DNA of 64,000 nt, taken from Herpetosiphon geysericola (lineage in GTDB: Bacteria; Chloroflexota; Chloroflexia; Chloroflexales; Herpetosiphonaceae). Position 1 is the stretch's first letter. The number at the start of each line of letters is the position of its first letter. The position numbers and the translations under genes are program-made. The notes under the pieces are model-generated. The model was not told the origin of the DNA. It was given only the letters and a program-made list of their open reading frames with translations, and searched no databases. The stretch is from NCBI RefSeq assembly GCF_001306135.1, contig NZ_LGKP01000025.1, forward strand, positions 124,001-188,000. Reading direction: 5' to 3'. Shown here piece after piece: positions 40,016 to 60,855 of this stretch.

Positions 40016-40048
40016 AAAGATAGGTTAGTTGATTTTTTGGAGAGTCAG

Positions 40049-40357: not shown

Positions 40358-40403
40358 TAATCATCAAGCATGCGAAGCAACCAATAATCGCCTACTCAGC
40401 ACA

Positions 40404-41315: not shown

Positions 41316-41421
41316 TGCAGGCCCACCTTCCAGCTAAATTGCTTATTTCGGCGCTATTTTAGCATTGGAAGAAGAGTTTTGTTATTGTCTCCTCGTCCCA
41401 AGCCTAAAATAGCTGCTCAAC

Positions 41422-41450
41422 TTGACAATTAGCTAGCTTGGCCGTATTCT
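41422..41450 (+). promoter_or_regulatory. Promoter of tRNA-Arg
   Basis: A perfect TTGACA and TATTCT are 17 bp apart, 16 nt before the tRNA. This is one of the best promoter matches in the window. Confidence 0.75.
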
Positions 41451-41466
41451 ACACAGCGATAGATTC

Positions 41467-41542
41467 GACTCCGTAGCTCAGTGGATAGAGCGTTTGCCTC
41501 CGGAGCAAAAGGTCGCGCGTTCGAGTCGCGCCGGAGTCGCCA
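41467..41542 (+). tRNA. tRNA-Arg (anticodon CCG), CCA encoded
   Basis: The cloverleaf is complete: acceptor GACTCCG with CGGAGTC, D stem GCTC with GAGC, anticodon stem TTTGC with GCAAA around loop CTCCGGA (anticodon CCG, reads CGG), T arm GCGCG-TTCGAGT-CGCGC, discriminator G, then CCA. A strong promoter precedes and a terminator follows. Confidence 0.96.
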
Positions 41543-41545
41543 AAA

Positions 41546-41588
41546 AAACGCCGTGATCAGCATTCCTGATCACGGCGTTTACTTTTTA
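41546..41588. terminator. Terminator after tRNA-Arg, shared with the convergent operon
   Basis: A 15-bp perfect stem (AAACGCCGTGATCAG and CTGATCACGGCGTTT) with a 5-nt loop has A and T runs on both sides. It can also end the parAB operon on the minus strand. Confidence 0.88.
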
Positions 41589-41592
41589 GCAT

Positions 41593-42243: not shown

Positions 42244-42261
42244 AGAGCCTCCTTGAACATC

Positions 42262-43380: not shown

Positions 43381-43390
43381 AGGTTGCTCC

Positions 43391-45129: not shown

Positions 45130-45161
45130 ACACTTATTTCACAACATATATCTCGCGCCGA

Positions 45162-45170
45162 ATTGTACCA
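45162..45170 (-). promoter_or_regulatory. Possible extended -10 promoter of the parA operon
   Basis: On the minus strand TGGTACAAT gives an extended -10 (TG-N-TACAAT), about 33 nt before the parA start codon. No good -35 box is seen. Confidence 0.4.
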
Positions 45171-45233
45171 TACCATCAGCGTTTGGTCTTGTCTATCACG
45201 AACGGATTTTTGCTTAATTGGGGTTAATTGGAA

Positions 45234-45260
45234 GCCAGCAACCGCTTTTTGGTTGCTGGC
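45234..45260 (-). terminator. Hairpin after the fructokinase gene
   Basis: GCCAGCAACC and GGTTGCTGGC form a 10-bp stem with a 7-nt loop, 31 nt after the stop codon on the minus strand. No T tract follows, so termination is only probable. Confidence 0.55.
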
Positions 45261-45290
45261 ACTACGATTTGGCTTAGCAAAGCTAATGGG

Positions 45291-46244
45291 CTATGCGCGC
45301 AGAAATTGCTCGATTTGCTCGGCTGTCGGTAGCCCAGGAATCGCGCCGCGCACCAAGGTGGCTAACGCTCCTGCAATCGATGCCCGCTGTAACGCATGTT
45401 CAAAATCTGCTTGATCGTTGGCCAAGGCGGGCTGCTGAATCAATTGGGCTAACAAGCAGGCCACAAAACTATCGCCCGCCCCGGTTGCATCAATCGCCTG
45501 CACGGTGGGTGCGGCAATCCGCCCTGAGCCAACTGCTGTCTGATACCAACAGCCTGCGCTGCCATCGGTCACTACAATTACTTGGCTACGGGCATGCCAT
45601 AAACTTTGCGCTGCCGCCAACGGGTCCGCCAACTCCGTCAAAAATTCGGCTTCTTCGCGGCTCAGTTTCATAATCTGGGCATACGGTAGCAGTTTCAGCA
45701 TGACGCTGCGGGCTGCTGCCAATGATGGCCAGAGGGCCGCCCGCAAATTGGGATCAAACGAAAGCAGCATGTTATTCGTTTGGGCCAACTCAATTGCGCG
45801 CAAGGTGGTTTGATAGCCCAACTCGTTGCTGGCGCTCAGCGAGCCAAAGTGCAACAACTTGGCCGTGGCAAATTGTTGTGGGTCGAGATCGCTGGGGGCA
45901 AACAACATATCAGCGCTTGGATGGCGATAGAACATAAAATCCCGCTCACCATCTGCTTGCAAGGCCACAAATGCCAAGGCTGTGCGGGCCTGCTCAGTGC
46001 GCCGCAGGCCTTGGATATCAACGTGGTGCGTTGCCAAGGTCTCAGCCAGAAAATCGCCAAAAGCATCGGCCCCAACCATGCCCAAAAAACCACTACTAAC
46101 GCCCAAGCGAGCCAAGCCTACCGCAACATTGGCTGGCGCGCCACCAGCTGCTCGTTGCCATAATGGCGTATTTGCCACGCCCAAACCAGCTTCGGTTGGC
46201 ACAAAATCAACCAATAATTCCCCAAGACATAACGCCTGTGTCAT
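45291..46244 (-). CDS. PfkB-family carbohydrate kinase, fructokinase type
   Basis: 317 aa, ATG with AGGAG upstream. N-terminal CLGELLVDFVP and GGAPANVAVGLARLG, and the catalytic DATGAGDSFVACLL are standard for ribokinase/PfkB sugar kinases; the N-terminal half is closest to fructokinases. It follows a LacI-type regulator by 11 nt, so the two form a sugar-responsive operon. No transporter or hydrolase is adjacent, so the sugar is inferred. Confidence 0.88.
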   Translation of the reverse strand: MTQALCLGELLVDFVPTEAGLGVANTPLWQRAAGGAPANVAVGLARLGVSSGFLGMVGADAFGDFLAETLATHHVDIQGLRRTEQARTALAFVALQADGERDFMFYRHPSADMLFAPSDLDPQQFATAKLLHFGSLSASNELGYQTTLRAIELAQTNNMLLSFDPNLRAALWPSLAAARSVMLKLLPYAQIMKLSREEAEFLTELADPLAAAQSLWHARSQVIVVTDGSAGCWYQTAVGSGRIAAPTVQAIDATGAGDSFVACLLAQLIQQPALANDQADFEHALQRASIAGALATLVRGAIPGLPTAEQIEQFLRA

Positions 46245-46255
46245 ACGATCTCCTC

Positions 46256-47266
46256 TTATACCTTGCTTGGCTTGGTGCTGCTGGTGCGTTCAATTAAGTT
46301 GACCGGCAAGGTGTGCAAGGTTGGGCGGCGCGTGCCCTCGTTGAGCGCTGCGAGCAGCACCTCTGCTCCTTTGCGCCCCATCTGCTCCATTGGCTGATGA
46401 ATCGTGGTTAACCCAATCAGCTGTGCCATTTCAAGATCGTCATAGCCAACCACTGCCAGATCATCGCCAGCTTTCAAGCCACGTTCGCGCAGGGCATCAA
46501 TGATGCCAAACGCTAGATCGTCGTTGGCAGCAAAGATCGCGCTTGGCGGTTCGGCCAAATCGAGCAGTTCAAGCGCTGCCTGATGGCCCCAATCGCGGCG
46601 GTCAAAGCCAGCCCGCACATATTCGGCCTGGATTGGCAGATGATGAGCGGTTAAGGCAGCCTCGTAGCCACGCTGTCGATCACGGTTGACCGTAAAGCCC
46701 AAATCTGGCTCCAACTGCCCAGAGACAAAGCCAATTCGTTGATGGCCTTGGCTAATCAGATGTTCGACCGCCTTGAATGCACCGCCCACGTTATCGACGA
46801 CCACCGAAGGCAAATTGCTGGCTTGGGTATCGATCATTACAGCGGGCAAGTTGGCTGCTTGGAGGCGTTTGATTTCTGGGGGTGCTAAGGGCAGCGAAAC
46901 AATCAATAGCCCGTCGGTGCGGCCCAAAAATGGCAGCGTGTTGAAGTAGCGTGTGCGTTGCTCAGGCGAATCAACATTGAAGATAATCAGCTGATACTCG
47001 GAATTGGCTACAACCGCTTCGATGCCGCGCAGAACTTCAATAAAAAATGGCCGCGTGAGGAAGGGCAGAATAATGGCAATCGCATTGGTTTTGGCAGTTA
47101 CTAATTGCCGCGCAGCATGATTTGGCCGATAACCAAGCTCGTCAATGACCGCCAAAACTCTGGCCCGAGTTTCCGGCAGGACGTTCGGCGATTCGTTGAG
47201 CACCCGCGAAACTGTCGCAATGCCAACTCCCGCCCGTTTTGCCACATCTTTAATCGTATATGCCAT
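46256..47266 (-). CDS. LacI-family transcriptional regulator
   Basis: 336 aa from the ATG at 47266 (AGAGGA 7 nt upstream); this is the normal LacI start (MAYTIKDVAKRAGVGIATVSRVLNES). The HTH is followed by the hinge helix (RPNHAARQL) and a periplasmic-binding-type sensor domain (VVVDNVGGAFKAVEHLISQGHQRIGFVSG, then PSAIFAANDDLAFGIIDALRERG). It probably controls itself and the sugar kinase downstream through the operator at 47291-47305. Confidence 0.93.
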   Translation of the reverse strand: MAYTIKDVAKRAGVGIATVSRVLNESPNVLPETRARVLAVIDELGYRPNHAARQLVTAKTNAIAIILPFLTRPFFIEVLRGIEAVVANSEYQLIIFNVDSPEQRTRYFNTLPFLGRTDGLLIVSLPLAPPEIKRLQAANLPAVMIDTQASNLPSVVVDNVGGAFKAVEHLISQGHQRIGFVSGQLEPDLGFTVNRDRQRGYEAALTAHHLPIQAEYVRAGFDRRDWGHQAALELLDLAEPPSAIFAANDDLAFGIIDALRERGLKAGDDLAVVGYDDLEMAQLIGLTTIHQPMEQMGRKGAEVLLAALNEGTRRPTLHTLPVNLIERTSSTKPSKV

Positions 47267-47290
47267 GGGGGTGTCCTCTCGAATGAGCCA

Positions 47291-47305
47291 TGGAAACGTT
47301 TTCAA
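47291..47305 (-). promoter_or_regulatory. LacI-type operator upstream of lacI-fructokinase operon
   Basis: The palindrome TGGAAACGTTTTCAA, with core AAACGTTT, is the classical LacI/GalR-type site. It lies 24 nt before the LacI start codon, in place for autorepression. Confidence 0.75.
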
Positions 47306-47373
47306 GGCATCTTAGCCTGAATGTAGTAGGCTTGTCAAGCGATCATACCATGGTCATGCAAAAGGGCAATAAT

Positions 47374-49032
47374 TTAGGGTTGACTATAGACAACGACCCA
47401 ATAATGGCCGTAGGTTGCTTGGGCATTTTGGGCATGGCCAATGCCAAACTCGCTAATGTTGGGGCTAAGCAAATCGGCCTGCAAGCCCGGGTCGTTGATC
47501 AGCGCGTCGAAGGCTGCTTGGGCATTGCTATGGCCCGCGCTAATATGCACATTCCAGAAACTGCTAATATGATTGGCTTGGCGCAGCAAATCGCCAATTG
47601 TTTGGCCAGCAGAGGTCGTGTTGCTAAAATAGTTGTTGTTGGCCATATCGTTGCTATGAGCTTGAGCCACGCTTTGCACTTGCGCTTGCAAGAGTAAGGA
47701 TGGCAGCCCATTTTGGCTCCGAAATTGATTGATCAAATCGGCCAATTGGCTAATTTCTGGGGCTAAGGCTTGGGTTGGCTCGATCGTTGGTTCAGCAGTT
47801 GGTGGCACTTGGGTTGGCTCGGCGGTTGGTTCAGCAGTTGGTGGCGCTTCGAGCGTTGGCACTGTGCTTGGAGTTGGCTCGCTGGTAGCGGGAACGCTGC
47901 TGGCGGTTGGTTCAGTTGAGGGCAAATTAATAATCGCGATAACTTGGGCCGTGGCGGTCGAATTGGCTGCACCCGCCGAGCGCATGCTCAACATAACTTG
48001 GGTGCCAATTAAGCCAACCACAATTAACAAGCCAAGAATGCCGATATACCAGCGGGCTTTGCTTTTGGCTACTGGTATATCGGCGAGGCTTGGTGTGTTG
48101 AGCGCAATCGTCGCCTTGCCTGCACTCGAAACCAGTTGTGGCCCGCGAATTGTATTGTTTTCGTTGATGCTTGGACTGGCTTTGCTTGGGTTTTTGAGCA
48201 ATTGCAAGGCTTTTTCGGCTGTATCAGGCCGTTTATTGGGATCAAGCTCCAGCAATTGCACCATGATTGCATCTAACCCTGTTGGCACATTATCGGCCAA
48301 CTCGCTTGGGCGCCGCAGCCGAATATGGCCAGAAATGCGCGATTCTGCTGGAACTGGCGCATGGCCGGTTAGCATGTGGTAGGCAGTTGCGCCAAGGCTA
48401 TACAAATCGGAGCGGGCATCGGTAGCGCGTCCGCGCGATTGCTCAGGCGAGGCATAAAAGAGCGAAAACGCTTTGGCGGCGGTTTCGGTGCTTTGACTGC
48501 GTTTGGCAATGCCAAAATCGAGCAGTACCAAGCGATCGTCGGCGGTGCGCTTAATATTTTCGGGCTTAATATCGCGATGGATAATATTGAGTGCATGCAA
48601 TTGGGCCAATTGGCCAAGCATCACGCTCAGAAAATGCTCGACTATGCTTGGAGCTAAGCGTTCGTGGGCCTCGATTAATGAGCCAACGGTTGTGCCGCTG
48701 ACAAACTCCATCACCAACGCGATGACGTTGCCCTCGCTCCAAATATCATAAACTTCGGGAATGAAGGGCAAATGGCGGGCATGTTGAGCCAGAATTTGGG
48801 CCTCGACCGTGACCTGTTCGCGCATAGCTGGCGAATTGGCGGTAATCAGTTTAATCGCATAATGGCGAGCTAAATCGATATCGAATGCTTCGTAAACCAC
48901 GCCAAAACCGCCTTGGCCAAGCAGGCTTTTGACCCGATAGCGATTGCGCAGCAGCAAGGGTTGATGGCATTGTGGGCAACGAACATCCGTTGCAGCCACA
49001 ACGGTTTGACATGCATAGCAGTTGATCGACAT
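47374..49032 (-). CDS. Zinc-ribbon Ser/Thr protein kinase fused to an extracellular CAP/SCP domain
   Basis: 552 aa. Order: zinc ribbon (CYAC and CPQC, residues 5-23); kinase domain (LGQGGFGVVYEAF, catalytic IIHRDIKPENI, DFGIAK, YASPEQ) to about residue 270; one membrane helix (WYIGILGLLIVVGLIGTQVM); a long Pro/Thr/Glu linker of PTAEPT-type repeats; and a C-terminal CAP/SCP domain (LINQFRSQNGLPSLL, VAQAHSNDMANNNYFS, FGIGHAQNAQATYGHYWVVVYS). The kinase is Hanks type, so the protein should signal across the membrane, with CAP as the outside sensor or effector. A kinase plus CAP is an unusual fusion to me. Confidence 0.88.
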   Translation of the reverse strand: MSINCYACQTVVAATDVRCPQCHQPLLLRNRYRVKSLLGQGGFGVVYEAFDIDLARHYAIKLITANSPAMREQVTVEAQILAQHARHLPFIPEVYDIWSEGNVIALVMEFVSGTTVGSLIEAHERLAPSIVEHFLSVMLGQLAQLHALNIIHRDIKPENIKRTADDRLVLLDFGIAKRSQSTETAAKAFSLFYASPEQSRGRATDARSDLYSLGATAYHMLTGHAPVPAESRISGHIRLRRPSELADNVPTGLDAIMVQLLELDPNKRPDTAEKALQLLKNPSKASPSINENNTIRGPQLVSSAGKATIALNTPSLADIPVAKSKARWYIGILGLLIVVGLIGTQVMLSMRSAGAANSTATAQVIAIINLPSTEPTASSVPATSEPTPSTVPTLEAPPTAEPTAEPTQVPPTAEPTIEPTQALAPEISQLADLINQFRSQNGLPSLLLQAQVQSVAQAHSNDMANNNYFSNTTSAGQTIGDLLRQANHISSFWNVHISAGHSNAQAAFDALINDPGLQADLLSPNISEFGIGHAQNAQATYGHYWVVVYSQP

Positions 49033-49188
49033 AGAGCCACCTGTCGTAAACCAAGTGAACCAATAACCCTAGCCTACACCAAGCAACTGGCCCAATGCAA
49101 TGGATAATCAGGCCTATATTGCGACCCACGACCCTCGGCCATTTGGCGAGTTAAAGTGAGGCCAAATGCTGCCGCTGGGTGTGAATTC

Positions 49189-49197
49189 TGCTACAAT
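49189..49197 (+). promoter_or_regulatory. Extended -10 promoter, possible leaderless start
   Basis: TG-C-TACAAT ends 6 nt before the ATG at 49204. Transcription would then start at or very near the start codon. There is no ribosome site upstream of the ATG, which fits a leaderless mRNA. Confidence 0.5.
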
Positions 49198-49203
49198 AGA
49201 ACT

Positions 49204-49515
49204 ATGATAAAACTACTGATGAGTTGGAATATAGCAGAAGGCCGCGAGCAAGCTCATCTTGAGTATGTCACGAGTGAGTTTGTTCCTGCTCTGATGAAGC
49301 ATGGCGCAATTAGCGATGCTTGGCTTTCGCTGGGCGGAACGCCTGAGGCCCCAGAGATGATCCTGGGGATTACCTCGGATGAAGAGATTGAACTACGCTC
49401 ATTTCTCCAAAGCAACGAATGGCAAGAACTAAGCGCCAAGCTCAGCCGCCATGTTGCTGATTTTCGCTACTGGTTTACCAACAAAATTCAGAACCCTGGT
49501 GGGTTTCAGATGTAG
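49204..49515 (+). CDS. Small protein, possibly dimeric alpha/beta barrel type
   Basis: 103 aa from the ATG at 49204. The start MIKLLMSWNIAEGREQAHLEYVTSEFVPAL and the later strand and helix pattern resemble dimeric alpha+beta barrel (EthD/monooxygenase-like) small proteins. No catalytic residue can be pointed out. No ribosome site precedes it, and an extended -10 box sits directly upstream, so it may be translated from a leaderless mRNA. It is divergent from the kinase gene and ends at a hairpin. Confidence 0.7.
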   Translation: MIKLLMSWNIAEGREQAHLEYVTSEFVPALMKHGAISDAWLSLGGTPEAPEMILGITSDEEIELRSFLQSNEWQELSAKLSRHVADFRYWFTNKIQNPGGFQM

Positions 49516-49525
49516 CCTAAAAAGC

Positions 49526-49561
49526 ATCAAGGCGATCAAGCATCAGCCCAATCGCCTTGAT
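49526..49561. terminator. Hairpin between convergent genes
   Basis: ATCAAGGCGAT and ATCGCCTTGAT form an 11-bp perfect stem with a 14-nt loop between the small plus-strand gene and spoVS. The T run is poor. Confidence 0.55.
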
Positions 49562-49609
49562 TAATCGTGCCAACAGCAATTGCTTGGCATGCAACCGCCC
49601 CAACCTGCT

Positions 49610-49960
49610 TTAGCCTTTTTTGATCAACAAGCGAATTGCCGTGCGTTCCTCTTCATCGATGGCAACATCGATAAACGAGGGGACGCAAACAATATCGATG
49701 CCTTCTTCTTGAAGGTATGAACGTGCGATTGCAACCGCTTTAATCGCTTGATTGGTTGCGCCAGCGCCGATCGATTGAACCTCGGCATGGCCAGCTTCGC
49801 GAATAACTCCGGCAATGGCCCCGGCTACCGCCGATGGGCGTGAACGTGTTGAGACCTTTAAAACTTCTGCATCGTTGTGTACTGCGCCAGCATTGCTGGG
49901 CGCATCGGCGGAAGTGGTCCGTTGGTCGTCGTTGCTAAAGCGATCAAGTTGATACGCCAT
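49610..49960 (-). CDS. spoVS: Stage V sporulation protein S homologue
   Basis: 116 aa, ATG with AAGGAGG upstream. The last 86 residues are a canonical SpoVS/Alba-like domain (EVLKVSTRSRPSAVAGAIAGVIREAG, then QSIGAGATNQAIKAVAIARSYL and DEEERTAIRLLI). The first 30 residues are an extra polar tail not seen in Bacillus SpoVS. It follows the RNase Y gene as in Bacillus (rny-ymdB-spoVS). The organism suggested by this window is not a known endospore former, so the role is probably nucleic-acid binding unrelated to sporulation. Confidence 0.93.
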   Translation of the reverse strand: MAYQLDRFSNDDQRTTSADAPSNAGAVHNDAEVLKVSTRSRPSAVAGAIAGVIREAGHAEVQSIGAGATNQAIKAVAIARSYLQEEGIDIVCVPSFIDVAIDEEERTAIRLLIKKG

Positions 49961-50023
49961 TGCTGCCTCCTTGAAAAGGAACGGTAGAGATTGCTGTCAT
50001 GCACGCATCGCGCCTTCTCAGGT

Positions 50024-50100
50024 TGAGGGAAGGGCGCTGAACAGCCGCTTGCCAAGCGGATATGTCCACGCTGGTTGGGCCAGCGTTGCCCTTTCCCTCA
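50024..50100 (-). ncRNA. Candidate structured RNA between rny and spoVS (three-way junction)
   Basis: The 77-nt segment can fold as a closed three-way junction. A 12-bp outer helix (TGAGGGAAGGGC at 50024-50035 with GCCCTTTCCCTCA at 50088-50100, one bulged base) encloses two perfect hairpins: CCGCTT/AAGCGG (50045-50059) and CGCTGG/CCAGCG (50069-50085). It has no T run and leaves 63 nt before the spoVS start. It could be a riboswitch, an RNase Y-related control element or an mRNA processing site. I cannot assign it to a known family. Confidence 0.5.
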
Positions 50101-50119
50101 GACACAGAGCCTCGCCTAC

Positions 50120-51649
50120 TTACCGTGCATAATCAACCGCACGGGTTTCGCGGATGACGGTAACTTTGATTTGACCTGGATATTGCAGGGTACTCTCGAT
50201 CTTTTTGGCCACTTCGCGGGCCAAATGGATACTTTCGAGATCATCAAGCGCATCGGGTTGCACCATAACCCGGACCTCCCGACCTGCTTGAATTGCGAAT
50301 GCCCGTTGAACACCAGGAAACGATGTGGCGACATGTTCAAGAGCTTCGAGCCGCTTGATGTAGAGATCGATGGTCTCGCGGCGGGCACCTGGGCGACCAC
50401 CAGAGATGGCATCGGCGGCTTGAACAAGAAAGGCCTCAACAGTTTGAGGTTCCTCATCGTTATGATGGGCAGCAATTGCATGAACTACCGCCGCGTTGCG
50501 GCCAAGCCGTCGGGCAATATCTGCGCCGATTAACGCGTGCGGCCCTTGTACATCGTGGTCAATGGCTTTTCCAATATCATGGAGCAGGGCTGCGGTCTTG
50601 GCAACCTGCACATTCGCGCCCAGTTCTGCTGCCATCGCTCCTGCCAAAAAGGCACATTCTAACGAATGTTGCAACACATTTTGGCCGTAGCTGGTACGAT
50701 ATTTCAACCGCCCCAGAATCTTCATCAGATCTGGATGAAGGCCTTGGACGTTGGCTTCGTAGGCCACGCGTTCGCCTTCTTCGCGGATTATTTGCTCAAG
50801 GTCTTGGCGAGTTTTATCAGCGACTTCCTCAATCCGGGCGGGGTGAATCCGACCGTCTTTCAATAGGCGGTTCAGGGTTAGGCGAGCCACTTCACGACGT
50901 ACTGGGTCGTGACATGAGAGCGTGACCGCTTCGGGCGTGTCGTCGACGATAATATCGACCCCGGTAATTTGTTCGAAGGCCCGAATATTGCGGCCTTCGC
51001 GCCCGATAATCCGTCCTTTGAGTTCCTCGCTGGGCAGTTGTACCGTGCTTACAGTAATTTCGGCGACATAATCCGATGCACAGCGTTGGATCGCCAACCC
51101 AACGATTTTGCGTGCAATTCGGTCACCATCGAGCTTTGCTGCCGCTTCGATTTCGTGGATGCGGCGAGCAGCCTCGGCACGGGTTTCTTGTTCAACACGA
51201 GTCAGAATGATTTCACGTGCTTGTTCGTTAGTGAGACCTGCGACCCGCTCCAGCTCAGCTTGTTGGGCTGTGCGGAGGCGTTCGGCTTCGCTGTGTAAGT
51301 TTTCGACCGCTCGCTCGCGCTGGCCTAACTGCCGATCGCGCTTTTCGGTTTGGTCGAGCTTACGTTCGAGGGTTTCTTCTTTGCGATTGACCCGTTCTTC
51401 TTGTTTTTGCAAGCGTAAACGGGCTTCGCGGAGTTCGTTTTCACCAACTTCCCGCAGTTGTTGTTGTTCTTCGCGGGCTTTTAATTGCAATTGTTTGTAC
51501 TCAGTCTTGGCTTGTTCTAATTGTAGTTGTGCTGCTGCTTCAGCTTGGGCGAGTGCTACACCAGATTTTTTTGTTAACCAAACATAGGCACCGCCTGCGC
51601 CTGCAGCTAGGCCAATGAGTAAAGCCAGAGCTGGAAGGATAAAGTCCAC
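50120..51649 (-). CDS. rny: Ribonuclease Y
   Basis: 509 aa. The start is GTG at 51649 with AGGAGG 7 nt upstream. An N-terminal membrane helix ([20 protein letters not shown]) is followed by a long Glu/Arg-rich coiled coil (about residues 40-160), a KH domain ([19 protein letters not shown]) and an HD domain ([23 protein letters not shown]). RNase Y is a membrane-tethered endonuclease that starts mRNA decay. SpoVS lies next downstream, with a possible structured RNA between. Confidence 0.96.
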
Positions 51650-52352
51650 AGGGTTTCCTCCTGGCTCAATTGTTAAGGTTCACCGACGAAATGGCACGAT
51701 GATAAGCTGTGTTAAGAGATTGCTAAGAATTCCGTTTCCTGCCGTATCATAGACGTTTTGCTAGGTAGTGTCAAGCTGATACGTGATACAGATTAATCCC
51801 TTGGTGTTATCCCTCTGATCCTACACCATAAGCAGTTTTGTATCCCCTTTACGTGGGATGATTAATGGGGGATATTTTCTCCAAGTTTCTCTATATTCTC
51901 TCCATTTAGGCGCATTTTTCTCTAAACTTGGCTCAGTTGTGGGGATGATTATGATCATTATGCTAAATTGAACATAGCGCTACAAGTAAAAATTTTCCTA
52001 ACATTCCTATGCACTCATCAGGATAAATGCTCGTTGATGGGCATTAGTTGGTCCTAGTTTGGCGTATCAAACCGCAGCATGATCGCTCGCCAGCACCACA
52101 TTTGTTCGTAGCGCTGGCAGTTTTAGCCTAGAATTGTTACAAAATTTTAATAAAAGCTTGTTTAGAGGCTGGTCGATCAATTGATCTTGCTGCTTGTTCA
52201 TCCCTGCTTTGCTCGCTTGCATCCGCCGCACGGAGCTATTGTGCTTGCCTGCATGGGCACGTTGATCACCATTATGCACCTTAGATACATAGCATTGTTT
52301 TGGGCAGCGAGTAGAGTTATGCCATCGCAATCTCGGATGAAGGGAGTTAATC
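51650..52352. other. Long intergenic region with a gene relic
   Basis: No intact gene is visible. The left part is the rny leader and promoter. 52186-52228 is a degraded copy of the 3' end of the APH-type kinase gene (55168-55210, about 38 of 43 bases alike). 52145-52168 (TAATAAAAGCTTGTTTAGAGG) recurs with changes at about 53684-53707. The region marks the border of the accessory cluster. Confidence 0.6.
52186..52228 (-). pseudogene. Relic of the APH-type kinase gene 3' end
   Basis: It reads RRMQASKAGMNKQQDQL on the minus strand, against RRMQASKAWMYQQQGQF in the intact gene at 55127. Nothing of the catalytic part remains. It shows that a second copy once lay here, consistent with repeated duplication in this cluster. 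Confidence 0.65.
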
Positions 52353-52728
52353 ATGCAGCCAACATATCATATTCCAGCCTATCAAATACCAATTTGGCAG
52401 CTATTGAAACGGAATATTCTCTTGTTTTTCATTGCTGGACTATCTACGGCTGGAATATTTGGATCGTTGTATTCCTTTTATCAAAAATACGGTTTTAATT
52501 TCGGTCATTAATATTTTATCGAGAGGACTACGACCCTTAGCAATAATTCCTTATATTGCACTAGTTTTGATCGTTTTAGGATTGATTGGAATTGATTGGC
52601 AGCGCTTTATGTATACCGGATCTGTATTAAATCGTGGATACCGATGGGGAATTACTAGTGTAATAATACTAACGCTTCATGTATTGGGAATGTGGTATCT
52701 TATTTTACATTTGCTTCATAACGCCTAA
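52353..52728 (+). pseudogene. Frameshifted small membrane protein gene
   Basis: From ATG 52353 (GGGAG 8 nt upstream) one frame gives 52 aa with a hydrophobic helix (ILLFFIAGLSTAGIFGSLYS) and stops at 52509. The +1 frame continues from there to 52728 with two more helices (PLAIIPYIALVLIVLGLIGI and SVIILTLHVLGMWYLILHLL). Skipping one base at the A run 52483-52487 gives a single protein of about 124 aa with three helices. A frameshift, or a sequencing error, in one gene is more likely than two overlapping genes. It is the only plus-strand gene in the cluster, and its stop codon overlaps that of the convergent gene. Confidence 0.55.
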
Positions 52729-53171
52729 TTTCGGCTTTGTTGATAGCGCTCATACACCCATTTTCGCGAACTAGGTTCTTCATACAAGTTGGCTAGATAG
52801 CTACAGAAGTTCTGGTCTTCATCATCAATATGATCGTAGACGGGATCGATTGCAGCAACAATCGCTGAACGTGATTTCCAATAACGCGTTTGCAGAATGC
52901 TGGTTGCATCAGTTTTGATGCTCAGCTTGCCAATAAACATTCCCGATACGTGGCTGATCTGCAAGTCGGGTGTAAAAGGGAGCACTATTTGATCAACGAG
53001 TAGATAAAGCTGATCAAACGCGAGCAAACCGATTAACACCTGCCCACCCTTAATTTTGCGTAAGACAGTGCCCATGCCAACGACCGCGCGCTGATCGCTT
53101 GGGTCGATAGGTAGTGCAAGTGCTGGAAGTTCGATGCTTGGCTCTAAACTGGGGTACTGCTCAAGTTGCAT
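52725..53171 (-). CDS. Domain A protein (paralogue of the N-terminal part of 56510-57316)
   Basis: 148 aa from the ATG at 53171 (AAGGAG 7 nt upstream). It has MQLEQYPS, then DQRAVVGMGTVLRK, LIGLLAFDQLYLLVD, a TRYWKSR segment, DPVYDHIDDEDQNFCSYLA and the end RKWVYERYQ. The same domain forms the first 155 residues of the protein at 56510. I do not recognise the family. Small, acidic and duplicated next to a barstar homologue, it could be an immunity-type protein. It closes a minus-strand unit 53616-53443-53171. Confidence 0.72.
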   Translation of the reverse strand: MQLEQYPSLEPSIELPALALPIDPSDQRAVVGMGTVLRKIKGGQVLIGLLAFDQLYLLVDQIVLPFTPDLQISHVSGMFIGKLSIKTDATSILQTRYWKSRSAIVAAIDPVYDHIDDEDQNFCSYLANLYEEPSSRKWVYERYQQSRN

Positions 53172-53200
53172 TAAATAGCTCCTTGCTTGGAATGTTCGTT

Positions 53201-53443
53201 TTAGCATAATTTTTTATAGTTCGGCCTAAACATTGATACTTGTAGATAGACCTTGGTCGAACAGATTGGGCAAATTCCACGTTTGAGATTGTATGGAAGC
53301 TGGGTTCCACAGGTTGAACAGATTGCCCACTCACAAAACCCATAATCAAAGCCAGCCCAATCAGGATCTTGCCTGGTCGGGATAGGCGATTGCGTGGATT
53401 TCCCACGGTTCCCACGCTTGATTCCCATCGGGTGTGTTCTCAT
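53201..53443 (-). CDS. Small zinc-ribbon protein
   Basis: 80 aa. Two CxxC pairs (ICSTC and ICPIC, residues about 42-63) suit one zinc ion. The N-terminal half is basic and unstructured. The ATG overlaps the stop codon of the 58-aa gene upstream (ATGA), which argues that this short frame is really translated. It ends 29 nt before the domain A gene. Function is unknown. Confidence 0.62.
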   Translation of the reverse strand: MRTHPMGIKRGNRGKSTQSPIPTRQDPDWAGFDYGFCEWAICSTCGTQLPYNLKRGICPICSTKVYLQVSMFRPNYKKLC

Positions 53444-53616
53444 AAAAAGCGGGTGGCATTACCCAAGAAAAAATGCGACTCGACAATTGGAACTTCGGTT
53501 CCGGGTAATGTCTGCCCAGCAAATACTCGTTGTAACACAGCTAATAATTCCTCATCGGGTAGTTCTTTTAATACCTTGATCAACGAATTGCGATCGGCTG
53601 GATTCAAAATCGACAT
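53440..53616 (-). CDS. 58-aa protein heading a small operon
   Basis: ATG at 53616 with AAGGA 5 nt upstream. It starts MSILNPADRNSLIKVLKELP and continues with acidic, helical residues (DEELLAVLQRVFAG), ending in a more hydrophobic tail (HFFLGNATRFL). Its stop codon shares bases with the start of the zinc-ribbon gene (ATGA). The ribosome site plus coupling make it credible despite its size. No function can be given. Confidence 0.6.
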   Translation of the reverse strand: MSILNPADRNSLIKVLKELPDEELLAVLQRVFAGQTLPGTEVPIVESHFFLGNATRFL

Positions 53617-53863
53617 ATTAATCCTTCTTTATTCAGAAATAGCTCTCTGCATTTGGGCATAACGCTCCAGTTTTAGCTCCAAAAAGCTTAATAAAAGCTA
53701 GCTTAGAGGTAGGATACTGAGAATTTCGAAGCCAAGCATATCCAACTATCTGGCCGATGTGCATACAGCGGGAGCTACCAACCCTTGAGGCTGCTGCCCT
53801 CGACGTGTTTGTGCTTTCCCCACAGGATGCATATTTTCGAGGCAATCCTTCCCTCATCATCCT

Positions 53864-55075
53864 TCAAACAGGCTTTTCCAGCTCTAGGAGCATCGCTTTG
53901 TTGACATAGCTCTGCGCGCTCAAATGATTGCAATAATCATCCAGCGTATCAGCAAAGCTCTGCCAGAGCAGCGCCCGCGTCACGGGGTCGCCAACGAGCG
54001 CGTCAAACTGCTGCTTTTTGGTTCGCTTGGCATGCGAGAGTCCTCCATAGACCCACAGATCAAACACCTGCCGCCGGGTTAGCGGCTTGTCGATCCTGTC
54101 GATCACGTTCCCTTTGGTATCGACGACCGGATACCGATCAACCAGCTCCGTAACTCCATCCAATACCATAGCGAATACGTTTTGATTTCCGAGATAAAGG
54201 CGGGCAGGCTCAGTGCCAATCGTTGCAGCTTTGTAGTATTGCGCGAGGTTTTCCAGCGAACATTCTTCGGTGTCGTCGATGAAGCAGCGCATGGTCAGCA
54301 CAAACGCAGCGGTTGCTTCGGAGCTTGGTCCTTTCGCTATCGCATTGAACAGATACTGGTCGTTGGCTGCGCGCGCTGACCGTATTTTGGCTTTGTTCCG
54401 ATGGTTTACTAGGGACTGGACAAAGGACAATTTCCATTGAGATCGCTTCTGATGGTTGTCGATGCGATCTTCCCATTGTTTGGCGTCGTTCTCGCGCTCC
54501 CTGATGTGTTGGACAAAGGATAAGCCCAACAGCGTATCCACCGTCTCATTAAAGCGCCGCAGGATAGCGATAAAGTGTTCAATGTTCGATGGCGTGGCGC
54601 GAGGGAACAGCGCACCGTGGACTACGAACCGATCGCGAATCGCCGCGATACGCTGAAATTGAAGATCCTCGGCATGGGCTTTCAGCGATTGCTTGAACGC
54701 AAGAAGCTCCGTTCTTGAGTCGCCCTCAATCCGAATCGTCAACATGGGGTCTATGCCGCTCCGATATTGCTCTGCGTTCGGCGGTGGCCCTGTGGTGGTG
54801 TGTACGAGCGCCATCCCTTGGTTGAGGAGCGCACCTTGGTCATAGTGAAGGGTTAACGTTGCCATCATCCCATAATCGATTTTGGTCATGCTCCGGTTAT
54901 ATGCGGTAATCGCGATCACCACGAATGTGCCTTCGTCTCCCATGGATGGGATGTAGGGACGGCGAATTTCGAGCGTATCCCCGATACAAATATCTGTGAG
55001 TGCTCGTCCACCGACATGCCAATCGGTTGGACCACGCTGCTCAACATGGACTATGTCAAAGGCTAAATTGTTCAT
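53864..55075 (-). CDS. 403-aa protein of unknown function
   Basis: ATG at 55075 with AGGGAG 5 nt upstream. Residues 1-100 look like a beta barrel (WHVGGRALTDICIGDTLEI, GTFVVIAITAYN). The rest is mostly helical, with a charged stretch around residues 195-240 and a C-terminal YGGLSHAKRTKKQQFDALVG. I do not recognise it. Its codon use (more CGG, CGC and GTC codons) is visibly different from the AT-rich barstar gene nearby, so the cluster is of mixed origin. It follows the APH-type kinase by 51 nt and may be its partner or cargo. Confidence 0.7.
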   Translation of the reverse strand: MNNLAFDIVHVEQRGPTDWHVGGRALTDICIGDTLEIRRPYIPSMGDEGTFVVIAITAYNRSMTKIDYGMMATLTLHYDQGALLNQGMALVHTTTGPPPNAEQYRSGIDPMLTIRIEGDSRTELLAFKQSLKAHAEDLQFQRIAAIRDRFVVHGALFPRATPSNIEHFIAILRRFNETVDTLLGLSFVQHIRERENDAKQWEDRIDNHQKRSQWKLSFVQSLVNHRNKAKIRSARAANDQYLFNAIAKGPSSEATAAFVLTMRCFIDDTEECSLENLAQYYKAATIGTEPARLYLGNQNVFAMVLDGVTELVDRYPVVDTKGNVIDRIDKPLTRRQVFDLWVYGGLSHAKRTKKQQFDALVGDPVTRALLWQSFADTLDDYCNHLSAQSYVNKAMLLELEKPV

Positions 55076-55126
55076 GGTATCTCCCTAGTCCCTGTTAGAT
55101 ATGGTTACGATTTACTGGACAAGCGT

Positions 55127-56164
55127 TCATGAGGCAAACATCGTCTGCAACAGCACGATAAATTGGCCTTGCTGCTGATACATCCATGCTTTGCTCGCTT
55201 GCATCCGCCGAATTGCCTGCTCTAAACTCGTGTGGCTCGGTAGGTCGGGCTTGCTGATGGCCCAAATCAGCGGGATGGCGGTGCGCAAGCCAATTAACTG
55301 GGGCATGGCGGCAATTTCCTGCGGGGTGAGCTTAATCCATTCTGCATAGCCACGGCAAAACTGCTCAGCCACCGCCCACGGGTTTGCCGGATTGCTATCA
55401 AGTTGCATGATCATCCGCAAAGCCATAGCCACATCGAGCGCGCGTGCTGCTGAGCAGGCAAATTCAAAATCGAGAATCGCGGCTACACGCCCGTAGCGCA
55501 TGAGGATGTTGGGTGGAGCAAAGTCGTTATGGCAAACCTGTTGCGGCAAACTGGGATATTCATTCGCCACAAACGCCATGAGGCTGGCTGCTTCGCTGCG
55601 CCACCACGCCCAGAGTTCAGCGTCGCTGGCCGAGCCGCCAAACTGTGCCGCCGAGAGTTGCAGCGGATCGTAGCGCGGCTGGGCATAGTTCAGCAATGCT
55701 TGAAACAGCGCATAGGGGCGACGCTCGCGCATTGGGCATGTTTGGAGCAGCGTTTGCAATTCACCAAGCGCCGTCCCCATTACATAGGCCCATTGGTTAA
55801 TGGTTGGGTGCTGTTGGCCGTTGGGTAGCAGCCGAAATTCTGGGGCTTCGCCAGTAATATACGGCGTTAGGGTGAATAATCCCTGCACTACCGAGCCTAG
55901 GTAAGAGATGCTACGAATCATTATCATTGGTACGGGCAAGGCAAATGAGCTGGGATGGCGGGCAAGCCACATTACCAGCTGATGCTCATAGAAAAGCCAA
56001 TCTTGACGCTCATACGGATAGCATTTCAAGACAAAATCGCCATTGGAGGCGCGAAGATGCAGACTAAGGTTATTGGCACTTGCGAGCTGGGCAACTACCT
56101 GAACAGGCTCGATTAAATCAAATGCCTGAATTGCCGCAGCAACGAATGGATTAATCTCGTGCAT
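55127..56164 (-). CDS. Aminoglycoside phosphotransferase (APH) family kinase
   Basis: 345 aa. It has the APH core: Lys in DFVLKCYPYE, the catalytic loop VCHNDFAPPNIL and the metal site AAILDFEFACSAARALDVAMAL. These kinases act on small molecules (aminoglycosides, homoserine, choline, fructosamine and others), and the substrate is not readable. It sits 29 nt after the domain B gene in a minus-strand operon. A second, decayed copy of its 3' end is at 52186-52228. Confidence 0.85.
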   Translation of the reverse strand: MHEINPFVAAAIQAFDLIEPVQVVAQLASANNLSLHLRASNGDFVLKCYPYERQDWLFYEHQLVMWLARHPSSFALPVPMIMIRSISYLGSVVQGLFTLTPYITGEAPEFRLLPNGQQHPTINQWAYVMGTALGELQTLLQTCPMRERRPYALFQALLNYAQPRYDPLQLSAAQFGGSASDAELWAWWRSEAASLMAFVANEYPSLPQQVCHNDFAPPNILMRYGRVAAILDFEFACSAARALDVAMALRMIMQLDSNPANPWAVAEQFCRGYAEWIKLTPQEIAAMPQLIGLRTAIPLIWAISKPDLPSHTSLEQAIRRMQASKAWMYQQQGQFIVLLQTMFAS

Positions 56165-56193
56165 GGTTGTTTGCGCTCCAAATATAGCGTTAC

Positions 56194-56526
56194 TCAGCCC
56201 AGCGTGTTCGGTAGATTCCGAAGTTGTAAAAATTCGATGCAGTTTGGCTTAAGTTCCGGCCAGCGACTGACAATCTGCGCAACAGCCGTTTGACATGCCT
56301 CATCGGAGTCAAGCAGGGCAGCTTGAGTGATGGCGAGCGCAGCTCTGACTTTTTCGATCTGATCTGCATAAAGCCATTCGCGCATAACTCGATAGATATC
56401 TGCGCCTCCCTGTTCATCCATCAGCCAGATTAAGCCTTCTACTTCTGCGGCAAAATGTTCTGGGGAGACTTTTTTCGTCAGCCTAATAAAGAGGTATTCA
56501 ATGGCTCGATCAATCGTCATATTCAT
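56194..56526 (-). CDS. Domain B protein
   Basis: 110 aa from the ATG at 56526, with GGGAGAG 7 nt upstream, which lies inside the end of the A+B gene (17-nt overlap). The domain reads MTIDRAIEYLFIRLTKK, then a WLMDEQGGADIYRVMREWL segment and SDEACQTAVAQIVSRWPELKP. The same domain is the C-terminal half of the upstream protein and the N-terminal part of the gene at 58663. All helical and acidic, with no known motif. The overlap suggests a duplication that kept translational coupling. Confidence 0.7.
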   Translation of the reverse strand: MNMTIDRAIEYLFIRLTKKVSPEHFAAEVEGLIWLMDEQGGADIYRVMREWLYADQIEKVRAALAITQAALLDSDEACQTAVAQIVSRWPELKPNCIEFLQLRNLPNTLG

Positions 56527-57316
56527 TTTTTGACTCTCCCTTACCGTAGTTTTTATGCCCCTCCCATATTTGTTGAAATGCGTAACACATTGGCTCAAGC
56601 TCGGGCCAGCGCCCAACAATTCGCGCGACAGTTGTTTGATAGGCCTCATCGGATGTAAGTAACAGAACTTCTTCGATCGAGAGCGCAACTTTAACTTTTT
56701 CCTTATCATCGGATTTAAGCCATTCGCGCATAATCCGATAGATATCTGAGCCATCATCATCCATAATCCAACTAAGGCATTGTAATGTTTCTGAAAAAAG
56801 GCTTGGCGGAGTATGCGGCGATAGGCGGCTCAATAGGTACTCTAAAACCTCATCAAGAGTGGTCGCTATGGGTTCTTTGGCTGGTTGATAGCGCTCATAG
56901 ATCCATTTTCGCCAATTTGGGTTTTGATAGCGGGAGGCTAGATAGCTGCAAAAGCTTTGTTCAGCATCATCAATCTGATCGTAAACGGGCTCGAGGTCGG
57001 CTACGGTTAATGGGCGCGATTTCCAATAGCGCGTTTGGATGAGGTTGGTTGCGCCAGCGTTGATACTCAGATTGCCCATAACTTTGCCCGATTCGTGGCG
57101 AATGGACAAGGCAGGTGTGAAAGGCATAACTTTGTTATCAACGAGTAAGTAGAGCTGATCAAACGCGAGCACGCCGATTAGTGCTTTGCCGCCATCAAGC
57201 TTGCGCAAGACTGTGCCCATGCCAACGACCGAGCGCTGATCGCCTGGAGCTGTAAGGAGCGCAAGTGCTGGAAGTTCGATGGTGGCTTCTCGACTGGGGT
57301 ACTGCTCAAGCTGCAT
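56510..57316 (-). CDS. Domain A + domain B protein
   Basis: 268 aa from the ATG at 57316 (AGAGGAG 7 nt upstream). Residues 1-155 are domain A (MQLEQYPS, VVGMGTVLRK, IGVLAFDQLYLLVD, TRYWKSR, DPVYDQ-type, RKWIYERYQ), close to the stand-alone copy at 52725. Residues 160-268 are domain B (LDEVLEYLLSRL, WIMDDDGSDIYRIMREWLKS, SDEAYQTTVARIVGRWPELEP). It is the founder-like full form of the family in this cluster. The function is unknown. Confidence 0.75.
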   Translation of the reverse strand: MQLEQYPSREATIELPALALLTAPGDQRSVVGMGTVLRKLDGGKALIGVLAFDQLYLLVDNKVMPFTPALSIRHESGKVMGNLSINAGATNLIQTRYWKSRPLTVADLEPVYDQIDDAEQSFCSYLASRYQNPNWRKWIYERYQPAKEPIATTLDEVLEYLLSRLSPHTPPSLFSETLQCLSWIMDDDGSDIYRIMREWLKSDDKEKVKVALSIEEVLLLTSDEAYQTTVARIVGRWPELEPMCYAFQQIWEGHKNYGKGESKNEYDD

Positions 57317-57400
57317 GTTGCTGCTCCTCTGGTTTTCCACAGACTCAGGATTTGCATATTTTCAGGCTCATCTTGGTTCGCTTAATAAGGTTTTTAGCTG

Positions 57401-57931
57401 CTACTCTTCATTATTGCTATCAAGTAACAAGGTAAAGCGATGTTTGACGAGAATTTTTTCTGGATGAATTGTCATATCGCTAATAAATTGCTCGACAACT
57501 AAAGGAAATAATTCATACTCTAAAGGCATAAATACATAGAGCCAATAAGGGCCTTCTCCTGTATTTCCTCTGTTGATTGAGCCAAGCATTGATGATGCAA
57601 TACTGACCATAAGCTCTTGAATAGATGGTTCGATTAAATCAAAATTTATCAATATAATGATAGTTAGATAATTTGGATAATCTATAAGCGCATAATCTGA
57701 AAAACAATCATTAAACGAATCCCAGGAATTCCAAAAATAATCTGGGAAATTAAATTTTTCTCTGGCTAAATCAAAAAAATCATTTTTACTTTGGATCGAA
57801 GCACCATCAATAGTTAAAATATTAACAAAATCTTTAAGGCTATCTTGTGCAGCAAGAATATCATCAATATTTGGTACAAAATACCAGTCTGGCTCCAATT
57901 TATTGAGTTGATCAACTGTTCCTGACAACAT
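57401..57931 (-). CDS. Barstar-family protein
   Basis: 176 aa. The core reads ILTIDGASIQSKNDFFDLAREKF, then NFPDYFWNSWDSFNDCFSDY, the barstar signature (barstar helix and the Phe-Pro-x-Tyr motif followed by Trp/Asn-rich residues). Barstars inhibit barnase-type ribonucleases; many act as immunity proteins to polymorphic toxins. It is longer than classical barstar (about 90 aa) because of extra residues at both ends. The gene is clearly more AT-rich than its surroundings, a sign of transfer. No toxin gene is in the window. Confidence 0.8.
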   Translation of the reverse strand: MLSGTVDQLNKLEPDWYFVPNIDDILAAQDSLKDFVNILTIDGASIQSKNDFFDLAREKFNFPDYFWNSWDSFNDCFSDYALIDYPNYLTIIILINFDLIEPSIQELMVSIASSMLGSINRGNTGEGPYWLYVFMPLEYELFPLVVEQFISDMTIHPEKILVKHRFTLLLDSNNEE

Positions 57932-57978
57932 ACTCCGTTCCTTATAACGAATGGCTAATTTATGCTCCAGTAGTTTGC

Positions 57979-58662
57979 TTATGATTGTCTATGCAAAAAA
58001 TCACGCCAGGCACTAATTGTTCTTTGAACATCGCTATGTGATTCGCCAGCCATAGAATCGAGATAGCGGCCTAGGTTAACGAAATCAACCTCTTTCAATG
58101 AATCGATTGCGACACTTCGACAAAGATAATAAGGATCACGTAACGCGGTGATAAAAAATGGAATATAGAATGGGTCACAACATTGCATAAATGATCTTAA
58201 TACGGCCACCCGAATATGTGATTCATGACCCATGACCAGTTTATAGAAAATCGGATCGACGAGTGTTGAAGGTTTATCATCTTTGAACTTAACTAAGCTA
58301 TTCACGGCAAAACGGCGAACATCTTCATCGGGATCATCAAGTAAGCTGATAATTAATGGTAAGGCCTGATGATCACGAACTATCCCAACATATTGACACG
58401 CAAATCCACGGCGTTTTGGTGAAGGATCATTGAGCATCGGATAAATCCACGGGCCACCTGGATCATGCAATTCTTCCAATGCACCTAAAATCTCAACGTC
58501 AAGGCCATCAATATTGGAATCACGACCCAAGGCCTTACGCAAAACTGGAATTGATACTGGGTCACCAAGGATTCCAACCAGTTCACAGGCTTCCAACGCC
58601 GCCCAAGTCGTTCCATCCTCAATGAGGGGCAAGAGATAAGGCAAACTCGCTGAGCCAGCAGC
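57979..58662 (-). pseudogene. HEAT-repeat part of a domain B-HEAT gene, split by an in-frame TAG
   Basis: About 227 codons in the same frame as 58663-59097, separated from it only by TAG. It encodes five or six HEAT repeats (SASLPYLLPLIEDGTTWAAL, GILGDPVSIPVLRKALGRD, LLDDPDEDVRRFAVNSLVKF and others). A TTG at 58644 could serve as a start but has no ribosome site. The sequence on both sides of the TAG (PILAVYQHPDMQTAKDAF, then AAGSASLPYLLPLIED) reads as one HEAT repeat, so the stop is probably a nonsense mutation in a 372-aa protein. Separate translation of the HEAT part is possible. Confidence 0.65.
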
Positions 58663-59097
58663 CTAAAAAGCGTCTTTTGCTGTCTGCATATCGGGGTGTT
58701 GATACACTGCAAGAATCGGTAGCCAGTTGGCTAATGATTGAATTGGTAGCCCTTTTCTGTTGCTATGTTTGGGAACTTTTTTATTCAGATCCCAAAGCAG
58801 CTGAAATTTATGACACATTGGTGCAAGTTCGGGCCAGCGTTCAACAATCCTTCTAATGGTTGCTTGGTATTCTTCATCTGAATCAAGTAAAAAAACCTCG
58901 TCAAGCGAGAGCGCAATTTTGACTTTTTCAATCTCATCAGAGTCGAGCCAGTTGCGCATGATTCGATGCATATCAGCACCATTATCATCAATAAGCCAGA
59001 CTAACTCTTCTACTATGTGCGCAAAAAGTTCTGGCGAGGCGTTTTTGTCCAGCCGCAACACGAGATATTCCAAAGCCTGATCAAGTGTGATAGTCAT
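58663..59097 (-). CDS. Domain B protein, N-terminal part of a split B-HEAT gene
   Basis: 144 aa from the ATG at 59097. Residues 1-105 are domain B (MTITLDQALEYLVLRLDK, WLIDDNGADMHRIMRNWLDS, SDEEYQATIRRIVERWPELAP). The last 40 residues (GLPIQSLANWLPILAVYQHP) already look like the first HEAT helix. It ends at TAG 58665-58663, after which the frame continues into HEAT repeats for 227 codons. The truncated protein alone could still be a working domain B unit, as at 56194. The ribosome site (AGGGG) is weak. Confidence 0.65.
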   Translation of the reverse strand: MTITLDQALEYLVLRLDKNASPELFAHIVEELVWLIDDNGADMHRIMRNWLDSDEIEKVKIALSLDEVFLLDSDEEYQATIRRIVERWPELAPMCHKFQLLWDLNKKVPKHSNRKGLPIQSLANWLPILAVYQHPDMQTAKDAF

Positions 59098-59613
59098 ACG
59101 CGCCCCTGTCGATTAGCTTCAGATTGCTATACTCGCTCCAGCGAGGATTAGTTCACCCGAAGGATGGCTTTGGGCTATTGGCTTTTGGACAGGAATAATC
59201 TGTGGAATCTGTGGCAAAAAACTTAACCTTCGCGATCTTCGCGGTTTCCATTCTTCGTGCTCTTCGTGTCCTTCGTGGATCGGAATGTTAACGCAGAGGC
59301 GCAGAGGAATATGGCTATGGGCTATTAGTTTGAGGAATTTCAATCCTAATCATCTGTGGAAATCTGTGGCTTAAAAAACTGATCATTCGTGCAATTTGTG
59401 CAATTCGTGGCTAAAAAATAAATCTTTGTGGTTTCCGAACTGCAAAGCCTATTTCGTTGCTAACGGGAGACGCAGGGGGGTTATATCCCTGCGTCTGCTA
59501 ATAGTTATGAGTTGGAATGTTGGTGCTTTCTCTATTGGCTCAAGATTTTGTGAATTGGCAATACCGCACCTTCGTGCTCTTCGTGTTCTTCGTGGTTTCA
59601 GCCTACTCTAGCC
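59098..59613. repeat. Gene-free gap with mosaic repeats
   Basis: 59197-59220 and 59351-59378 carry ATCTGTGGAAATCTGTGGC-type units (reverse of CCACAGATT). 59228-59282 and 59568-59600 carry CTTCGTG-type units (reverse of CACGAAG). 59465-59495 is an inverted pair (GACGCAGGG and CCCTGCGTC) related to the 52-bp repeat. I see no gene. Confidence 0.7.
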
Positions 59614-60837
59614 TTAGAATGTTTCGCCGCTGGCCAAATCTTGATCAACGAAGCTACGGGCGCTTACCACAACATTGCGGCCAATCGTATGGCCGGCGCT
59701 AACTCGCGCTGCCTTGCCAATCACGGTTAAACCAGTGTTCAACAATTGCGGTTGGGCAGCATTGGGCATGCCAATTGGGCCTTCGCCCACTTTGCAATCG
59801 CGGCCAATTACCACCTGTTTGTCAACCACACAGTTATCAAGCACCACACCTGGCTCAATCACGCTATCGGGCATAATGACCGAATCGCGGATAATTGCGC
59901 CTGCGCCAACCACAACTCCGGTGCCAATTACCGAGCCAGAAACATGGCCATCAACCCGACAACCATCGCAAAGCAAGCTGCGTTCGATCCGCGCTGAAGA
60001 GCCAAGCTGGGCGGCTGGGCGTTCAAACGAGCGCGTGCGCACCACCCACTCAGGATCATACAAATCGAGCGCTGGGGTTTCGGCCAGCAAGGCAATATTC
60101 GATTCGTAATAGGCTTGCACCGTGCCAACATCAGCCCAATAGCCATTGAAGGTATAGGCGCTAACATTGGCTTCGCTGACGATGCGCGGCAACATTTCGC
60201 TGCCAAAATCAACCGATTGATCACGATAGAGCAGATCGACCAAATATTCTTTGCGGAAGGCATATACGCCCATCGAGGCCAAGGCGCTGCTGGTACGGCG
60301 CGGCTTTTCTTCGAAGTTCGTCACCCGACCTTCGCCATCGACCGTGACCATGCCATAACGATAGGCTTCGTGCGGCGGCACGCTATGCACCGCCAAGGTA
60401 ACATCAGCGCCGCGCTGCATATGCAAATCGAGCAAAGGCCGATAATCCATCTTGTAGACGTGATCGCCAGCCAAAACCATCACATAATCAACGGGCCGTT
60501 CTTCGATCACATCGAGATGATAGCGAATGGCATCGGCAGTACCACGTTGCCAACCGCCGCCATCGGGCGTTGGAAAGGGGTGCAAGACCCGCACGCCGCC
60601 TTGCAAACGGTCGAGATCCCATGGCTTGCCTACACCAATATGCTCGTGCAACGAACGTGGCTGATGCTGCGAAAGCACGCCAACATCGTAAATACCCGAA
60701 TTAACACAATTCGAAAGCGTAAAATCGATAATTCGATATTTGCCAGCAAACGGTGTTGCCGCTGCTGCTCGGCCAGCGGTTAGCACGCTTAACGAAGGGC
60801 TTGCCCCACCAGCCATAATCAAAGCTAAAACACGCAT
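59614..60837 (-). CDS. GlgC paralogue with degraded active site (GlgD-like)
   Basis: 407 aa from the ATG at 60837 (GGGGAG 8 nt upstream), 18 nt after the intact glgC. The overall fold is that of ADP-glucose pyrophosphorylase: [51 protein letters not shown] and a left-handed beta-helix tail. But the nucleotide loop [10 protein letters not shown] is changed to GGASPSLSVL and RAKP to RAAA, losing the Arg and Lys that bind the phosphates. This pattern matches GlgD, the non-catalytic regulatory subunit in Firmicutes. It probably forms a heteromer with the neighbour. Confidence 0.85.
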   Translation of the reverse strand: MRVLALIMAGGASPSLSVLTAGRAAAATPFAGKYRIIDFTLSNCVNSGIYDVGVLSQHQPRSLHEHIGVGKPWDLDRLQGGVRVLHPFPTPDGGGWQRGTADAIRYHLDVIEERPVDYVMVLAGDHVYKMDYRPLLDLHMQRGADVTLAVHSVPPHEAYRYGMVTVDGEGRVTNFEEKPRRTSSALASMGVYAFRKEYLVDLLYRDQSVDFGSEMLPRIVSEANVSAYTFNGYWADVGTVQAYYESNIALLAETPALDLYDPEWVVRTRSFERPAAQLGSSARIERSLLCDGCRVDGHVSGSVIGTGVVVGAGAIIRDSVIMPDSVIEPGVVLDNCVVDKQVVIGRDCKVGEGPIGMPNAAQPQLLNTGLTVIGKAARVSAGHTIGRNVVVSARSFVDQDLASGETF

Positions 60838-60855
60838 ACTACACACTCCCCAGCA

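Follow-up and report, generated by a model that had tools for sequence, protein, structure and literature searches.

What does a string of small tandem genes beside rny do in Herpetosiphon geysericola, a member of a genus of filamentous, predatory bacteria, and could it protect its host against the toxins of rivals? The array lies on the minus strand of the window, that is the whole stretch of 64,000 nucleotides analysed here, taken from a 6.14 Mb genome (G000). It is located between a glgC-like gene (59614–60846) and rny (RNase Y), an anchor gene outside the array that is also on the minus strand (50120–51649). Read in the direction of transcription, towards rny, the array consists of a gene joining a domain B to HEAT repeats (B+HEAT, 57979–59097), a barstar homologue (57401–57931), a 268-aa gene joining a domain A to B (A+B, 56510–57316), a 110-aa B-only gene (56194–56526) whose first 17 bp are shared with the 3' end of A+B, an APH-type kinase (55127–56164), a gene for a 403-aa protein of no recognised family (53864–55075), two overlapping tiny ORFs (53201–53616), a 148-aa A-only gene (52725–53171), and the remnant 3' end of a second APH gene (52175–52288). 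From B+HEAT to the 403-aa gene the gaps measure −17 to 84 bp on a single strand. The tiny ORFs encode 58 aa and 80 aa, the latter with zinc-ribbon-like cysteines (CxxC pairs), and have no match at the loci of the other five Herpetosiphon genomes. The original prediction had described a cluster of A, A+B, B and B+HEAT forms on one strand with relics and mixed base composition; all four forms are indeed on the minus strand, the APH relic is present, and the GC content falls to 0.40–0.42 at 57–58 kb and 52–53 kb against about 0.51 around. Its naming of barstar, kinase and HEAT genes was likewise correct, as Pfam and NCBIfam recognise barstar (PF01337, E 3.3e-11), APH (PF01636, E 1.6e-25) and HEAT repeats (E 9.4e-18) alone among the array genes. 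Neither database detected a toxin family among these genes, and a relative's RHS protein used as query matched no RHS-type toxin in the window, in agreement with the earlier statement that the window holds no toxin.

Domains A and B form genuine families within the array. The A-only protein is 66% identical to the A part of A+B (E 2.8e-61), and the other two B copies are 50–54% identical to its B part (E 2.0e-36 and 1.4e-27). Since the matches of the A+B protein in its own genome are the four cluster loci only, the A/B pattern is not due to chance. Searches of Pfam, NCBIfam and PHROGs returned no significant match for A, B or the 403-aa protein, and the PDB no significant sequence relative. 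Among 60 relatives the A+B protein has matches in members of the genus only, and profile searches of about 300–400 Chloroflexota genomes found A and B in six Herpetosiphon genomes only. No relatives of A+B were found in plasmids and none of B in viral contigs. Two scans of 84,980 species genomes, which rest on a few short peptide patterns, gave H. aurantiacus DSM 785 as the sole relative, and it emerged in the second of them. Domain A has been seen nowhere except in the array. B has a second subfamily of stand-alone proteins of about 140 aa elsewhere in Herpetosiphon genomes, with LRR, DUF7919, MarR or unknown genes as neighbours and not beside RHS genes. The original prediction had held that housekeeping contexts or known unrelated families for A and B would tell against it; neither was seen, B elsewhere being this second small-protein subfamily only. 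One B member matched Tsi6 weakly (E 0.17), short of significance, and this match was set aside. The structure prediction proposed earlier gave a model for B and not for A. With AlphaFold2 and a 22-row alignment, B is modelled as a helical domain (blocks 151–260 at pLDDT 67–96); A was not modelled usefully, with pLDDT under 36 over residues 1–110, and the model of the 403-aa protein is unusable (mean pLDDT 36). The B model resembles HEAT/ARM helical hairpins in many chains, with VIA Z up to 7.7, not above the helical-model background; the best Foldseek E is 0.05, and a profile comparison of B with the HEAT part by hhalign is not significant. The modelled fold may be called HEAT/ARM-like, at a Z within background.

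Comparison of six species at the rny site, with one genome per species and the relatives' genes called by a mechanical ORF picker, revealed an array adjoining rny in all six, although in G003 the 403-aa gene is split between contigs and the link crosses that break. The rny gene is 99–100% identical in the relatives compared, and beside it gene number, type and order vary and relics abound. Towards rny, G001 (H. aurantiacus DSM 785, CP000875.1) carries B+HEAT, A+B, B, an APH gene with a TAG, a group II intron reverse transcriptase, and the 403-aa gene. G002 carries a HEAT relic, A+B, B, APH, several B genes of which one has an internal stop, a second APH, and the 403-aa gene. The array of G003 consists of barstar, A+B, B, APH and the 403-aa gene, and that of G004 of a HEAT relic, A+B and a 403-aa gene with an internal deletion. 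G004 has a second set, APH-B-B, on another contig together with Tn3, group II intron, IS4 and resolvase genes. In G005 the order is an RHS-repeat gene, an IS, an A relic, two B genes, APH and the 403-aa gene. A+B is intact in five of the six species, and the 403-aa gene is the constant partner next to rny (6/6). In the window itself the B+HEAT gene runs in one frame with an in-frame TAG at 58663–58665, where its intact 366-aa orthologue in H. aurantiacus has TGG. A frame-shift was ruled out, the frame being continuous with this single TAG, and the gene is probably a pseudogene or yields a truncated B-only product. Several in-frame TAGs in relatives prompted the idea of TAG recoding, which was rejected: they share no position, and most either mark where a shorter B gene truly ends or are isolated losses here and there. 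Compared with the other five Herpetosiphon genomes, the window is inverted over about 40000–59600, from the array through rny and parA/parB-like genes to about 40–43 kb, and the metallophosphatase that flanks the array in the others sits at 39350–40015 on the plus strand. The inversion ends have no clear inverted repeats. The intergenic stretch 59101–59612, at one of these ends, is made up of short dispersed CACGAAG-type repeats, which are also found at about 16.1, 29.9 and 63.3 kb.

The sequences of the array genes carry traces of exchange between copies. The A-only gene of the window groups with the A of the G003 A+B gene (100/100 support), its closest relative, and apart from the A+B gene of its own locus. 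In the B part of the G001 A+B gene, the first half is 83% identical to G002 A+B and the second half 51%, and this second half is 83–88% identical to the window A+B and to a stand-alone B of G002. By nucleotide, donor support at 94 informative sites is 37:7 in one half and 2:48 in the other, and 0 of 2000 shuffles gave as few runs in a run test on these sites. The two APH copies of G002 show gene conversion: their identity is 43–73% in the first 500 bp but 100% in roughly the final 400 bp. Recombination between tandem paralogues has been documented for the immunity genes esaG and tipC (PMC9484751). Those T7SS immunity arrays share with the present one strings of non-identical paralogues and recombination between conserved blocks; they have known toxins, EsaD and TelC (PMC9484751), whereas the A/B array is tied to no secretion locus or toxin. 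Estimates of dN/dS are 0.18–0.42 for A and B genes, 0.20 for barstar, 0.21–0.24 for APH, 0.41–0.66 for the 403-aa gene and 0.02–0.05 for rny; on this measure the A and B genes are under purifying selection, yet fast-evolving compared with rny. These values together with the mosaics indicate an array that is constrained and evolves through birth, death and exchange of parts. They bear directly on the idea that the array is decaying and mostly neutral, with recombination-amplified paralogues and mobile elements gathered at a permissive site by rny and no present common function. Losses of the expected kind are numerous: the TAG in the window B+HEAT gene, HEAT relics in G002 and G004, the TAG in the G001 APH gene, the truncated A of G005, the stop inside a G002 B copy and the APH relic of the window. 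The intact A+B, B, barstar and APH genes nevertheless have dN/dS of 0.18–0.42 at dS of 0.15–0.76, and A+B survives in nearly every species, which makes neutral decay improbable.

The barstar gene gives the array its one firm tie to immunity families. It scores 43.5 bits against a curated cut-off of 23.4, and its DSFND aligns to the DALEE of the genome's canonical barstar, so the DxxxD barnase-binding motif is kept. In all six genomes a single barnase-type gene, accompanied by a neighbouring barstar of its own, lies away from the array (G000:C34:130020–130663 in the window genome). No barnase-type RNase gene stands beside the array barstar, the genome's only match being at that other locus. As this sole barnase-type gene is paired with its own barstar, the array barstar, the second of the genome, is an orphan. 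It occurs in two of the six genomes, those of the window and G003. Toxin or secretion genes had been proposed as the genomic partners to look for with A and B, and one such neighbour was found. In G005 a gene for a 2263-aa RHS-repeat protein (PF05593, DUF6531) lies immediately upstream of the array on the same strand, with an IS between; its last 250 residues, the tip, were found in no other genus member. A tblastn search detected no RHS remnants at the corresponding site in the other genomes, and a partner of the proposed kind was seen in one genome of six. RHS genes occupy several loci in every genome, about six per 6-Mb genome as lower bounds, and by our rough estimate the chance of an RHS locus within 10 kb of the array in any of six genomes is roughly 11%; with several loci per genome, the single adjacency in G005 is weak evidence. 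In G004, contig C42 (L028:13710–19205) encodes an 1831-aa teneurin-TTR/YD-repeat protein; IS4 and resolvase genes separate it from the second APH-B-B set, about 4.6 kb away. G003 has neighbouring genes for patatin-EAD7 and NACHT-FGE-sulfatase-EAD7 proteins (L030:11638–17348), a combination reminiscent of conflict systems; not far from them are a B2-type gene and, where a contig ends, a copy of the 403-aa gene.

The variable content, relics, mosaics, orphan barstar and RHS adjacency in G005 are marks of a polyimmunity locus, and our best reading, made by association, is that the array is a locus of this type, a stockpile of antidotes against the toxins of rivals; we give it a probability of about one half. 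Small cytoplasmic antidote genes would be kept in tandem and co-directionally at one chromosomal site beside rny. The A, B, HEAT-repeat and barstar proteins would each block an arriving toxin domain by binding to it, with the fusions A+B and B+HEAT as polyimmunity proteins. New variants of A and B would arise as tandem copies recombine, and copies no longer in use would decay. Zhang et al. (2012, PMC3482391) have described polyimmunity loci and proteins with which the array shares one orientation, tandem small genes with short gaps, no toxin inside, content that varies between close strains (here species), fusions of unrelated domains, and recombinase-type and other mobile-element genes nearby; here Tn3, group II intron and resolvase genes stand at or near the arrays of relatives. 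Barstar and HEAT repeats are both listed as immunity types in that survey (PMC3482391); barstar is a recognised immunity family in the array, HEAT a plausible one, and A and B match no listed family. The array also differs in its embedded kinase and 403-aa protein and in its host phylum, as extended polyimmunity loci were not found in Chloroflexi in 2012 (PMC3482391). The SAIDI-1 islet of Salmonella Typhi (PMC7400221) similarly holds orphan immunity genes without toxins at a fixed chromosomal site, and one of its versions includes a HEAT-repeat gene. Unlike A and B, for which no cognate toxin was found, the SAIDI-1 genes have homologues in other places that lie downstream of known toxins. Direct binding between an immunity protein and its nuclease toxin is known for the HEAT-like Tdi5a (PMC13392607). 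This helical protein provides a precedent for the way in which a HEAT or B-type domain could directly block a toxin, though its toxin, unlike any of the array, is known and adjacent. The A, B and HEAT proteins may be immunity proteins that act by direct binding. Counting against a polyimmunity locus are the presence of barstar in two and of an RHS neighbour in one of six genomes, and the fact that neither the 403-aa protein nor the APH kinase, the array's most constant members, is a recognised immunity type. The dN/dS of the 403-aa gene, the second B subfamily standing away from RHS genes, the unusable model of A and the missing profile similarity between B and the HEAT part count against it too. 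The immunity reading of the original prediction has partial support: it fits the variable genus-wide array, its recombination, orphan barstar, HEAT member and one RHS neighbour, but the two constant members are atypical of immunity loci.

The kinase and the 403-aa protein, which we infer to belong functionally to the array, invite two other explanations. The N-terminal module of the 403-aa protein, about 104 residues long, also stands alone in the window genome (L109:13121–13459, G000:C34), about 7.5 kb from the barnase-barstar pair. A likeness between the 403-aa protein and UvrC UVR regions (E about 0.003–0.006) is short, one helix long, and was judged to be chance. The locus could be an operon particular to the genus, serving defence or stress and built around the two proteins, in which A, B and HEAT are scaffold or sensor parts, barstar is a passenger, and a triggered sensor leads the kinase to phosphorylate a small molecule or protein. 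The 403-aa gene is at the site throughout and APH in most genomes, and the kinase keeps its catalytic motifs (HNDFAPPN and DFE) under the constraint given above. For the C-terminal region of the 403-aa protein, the sole convincing distant relative found in Chloroflexota (G142, L072) adjoins an AAA_21/AbiEii-type ATPase. Yet the kinase, duplicated or broken among relatives, is nonsense-mutated in H. aurantiacus and missing from the main locus of G004, both of which retain A+B, and the copy number of B varies between loci, so the stoichiometry is not fixed. PADLOC likewise gave no confident match to system proteins; its weak matches were Csx1 (13 bits) and a HEAT-ARM model (17 bits), and A+B, B and the 403-aa protein had none. 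We consider such an operon rather unlikely. Alternatively, the site might serve small-molecule resistance or metabolism, with an APH-family enzyme modifying an antibiotic or metabolite and the other small genes unrelated to it. The enzyme is a confident member of PF01636, but it falls below every NCBIfam cut-off for aminoglycoside phosphotransferases and homoserine kinases, and B copies accompany it, on the second G004 contig as well; we regard this explanation as very unlikely.

Returning to the polyimmunity locus, a bolder form of that reading takes A and B as two new immunity-domain families peculiar to a predatory Chloroflexota lineage, which recombination re-assorts among themselves and with HEAT repeats and a co-diversifying kinase into combinatorial antidotes against undiscovered Herpetosiphon toxins; we put it forward tentatively and think it rather doubtful. 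If the stockpile reading is true, a polyimmunity locus would be present in a phylum without extended ones reported in 2012 (PMC3482391), and two undescribed domain families would be added. The array would also be a clear natural example of antidote-type genes diversified by intragenic recombination outside Firmicutes, and the RHS tips of Herpetosiphon would offer a handle on the toxins that strains of this predatory genus use among themselves.
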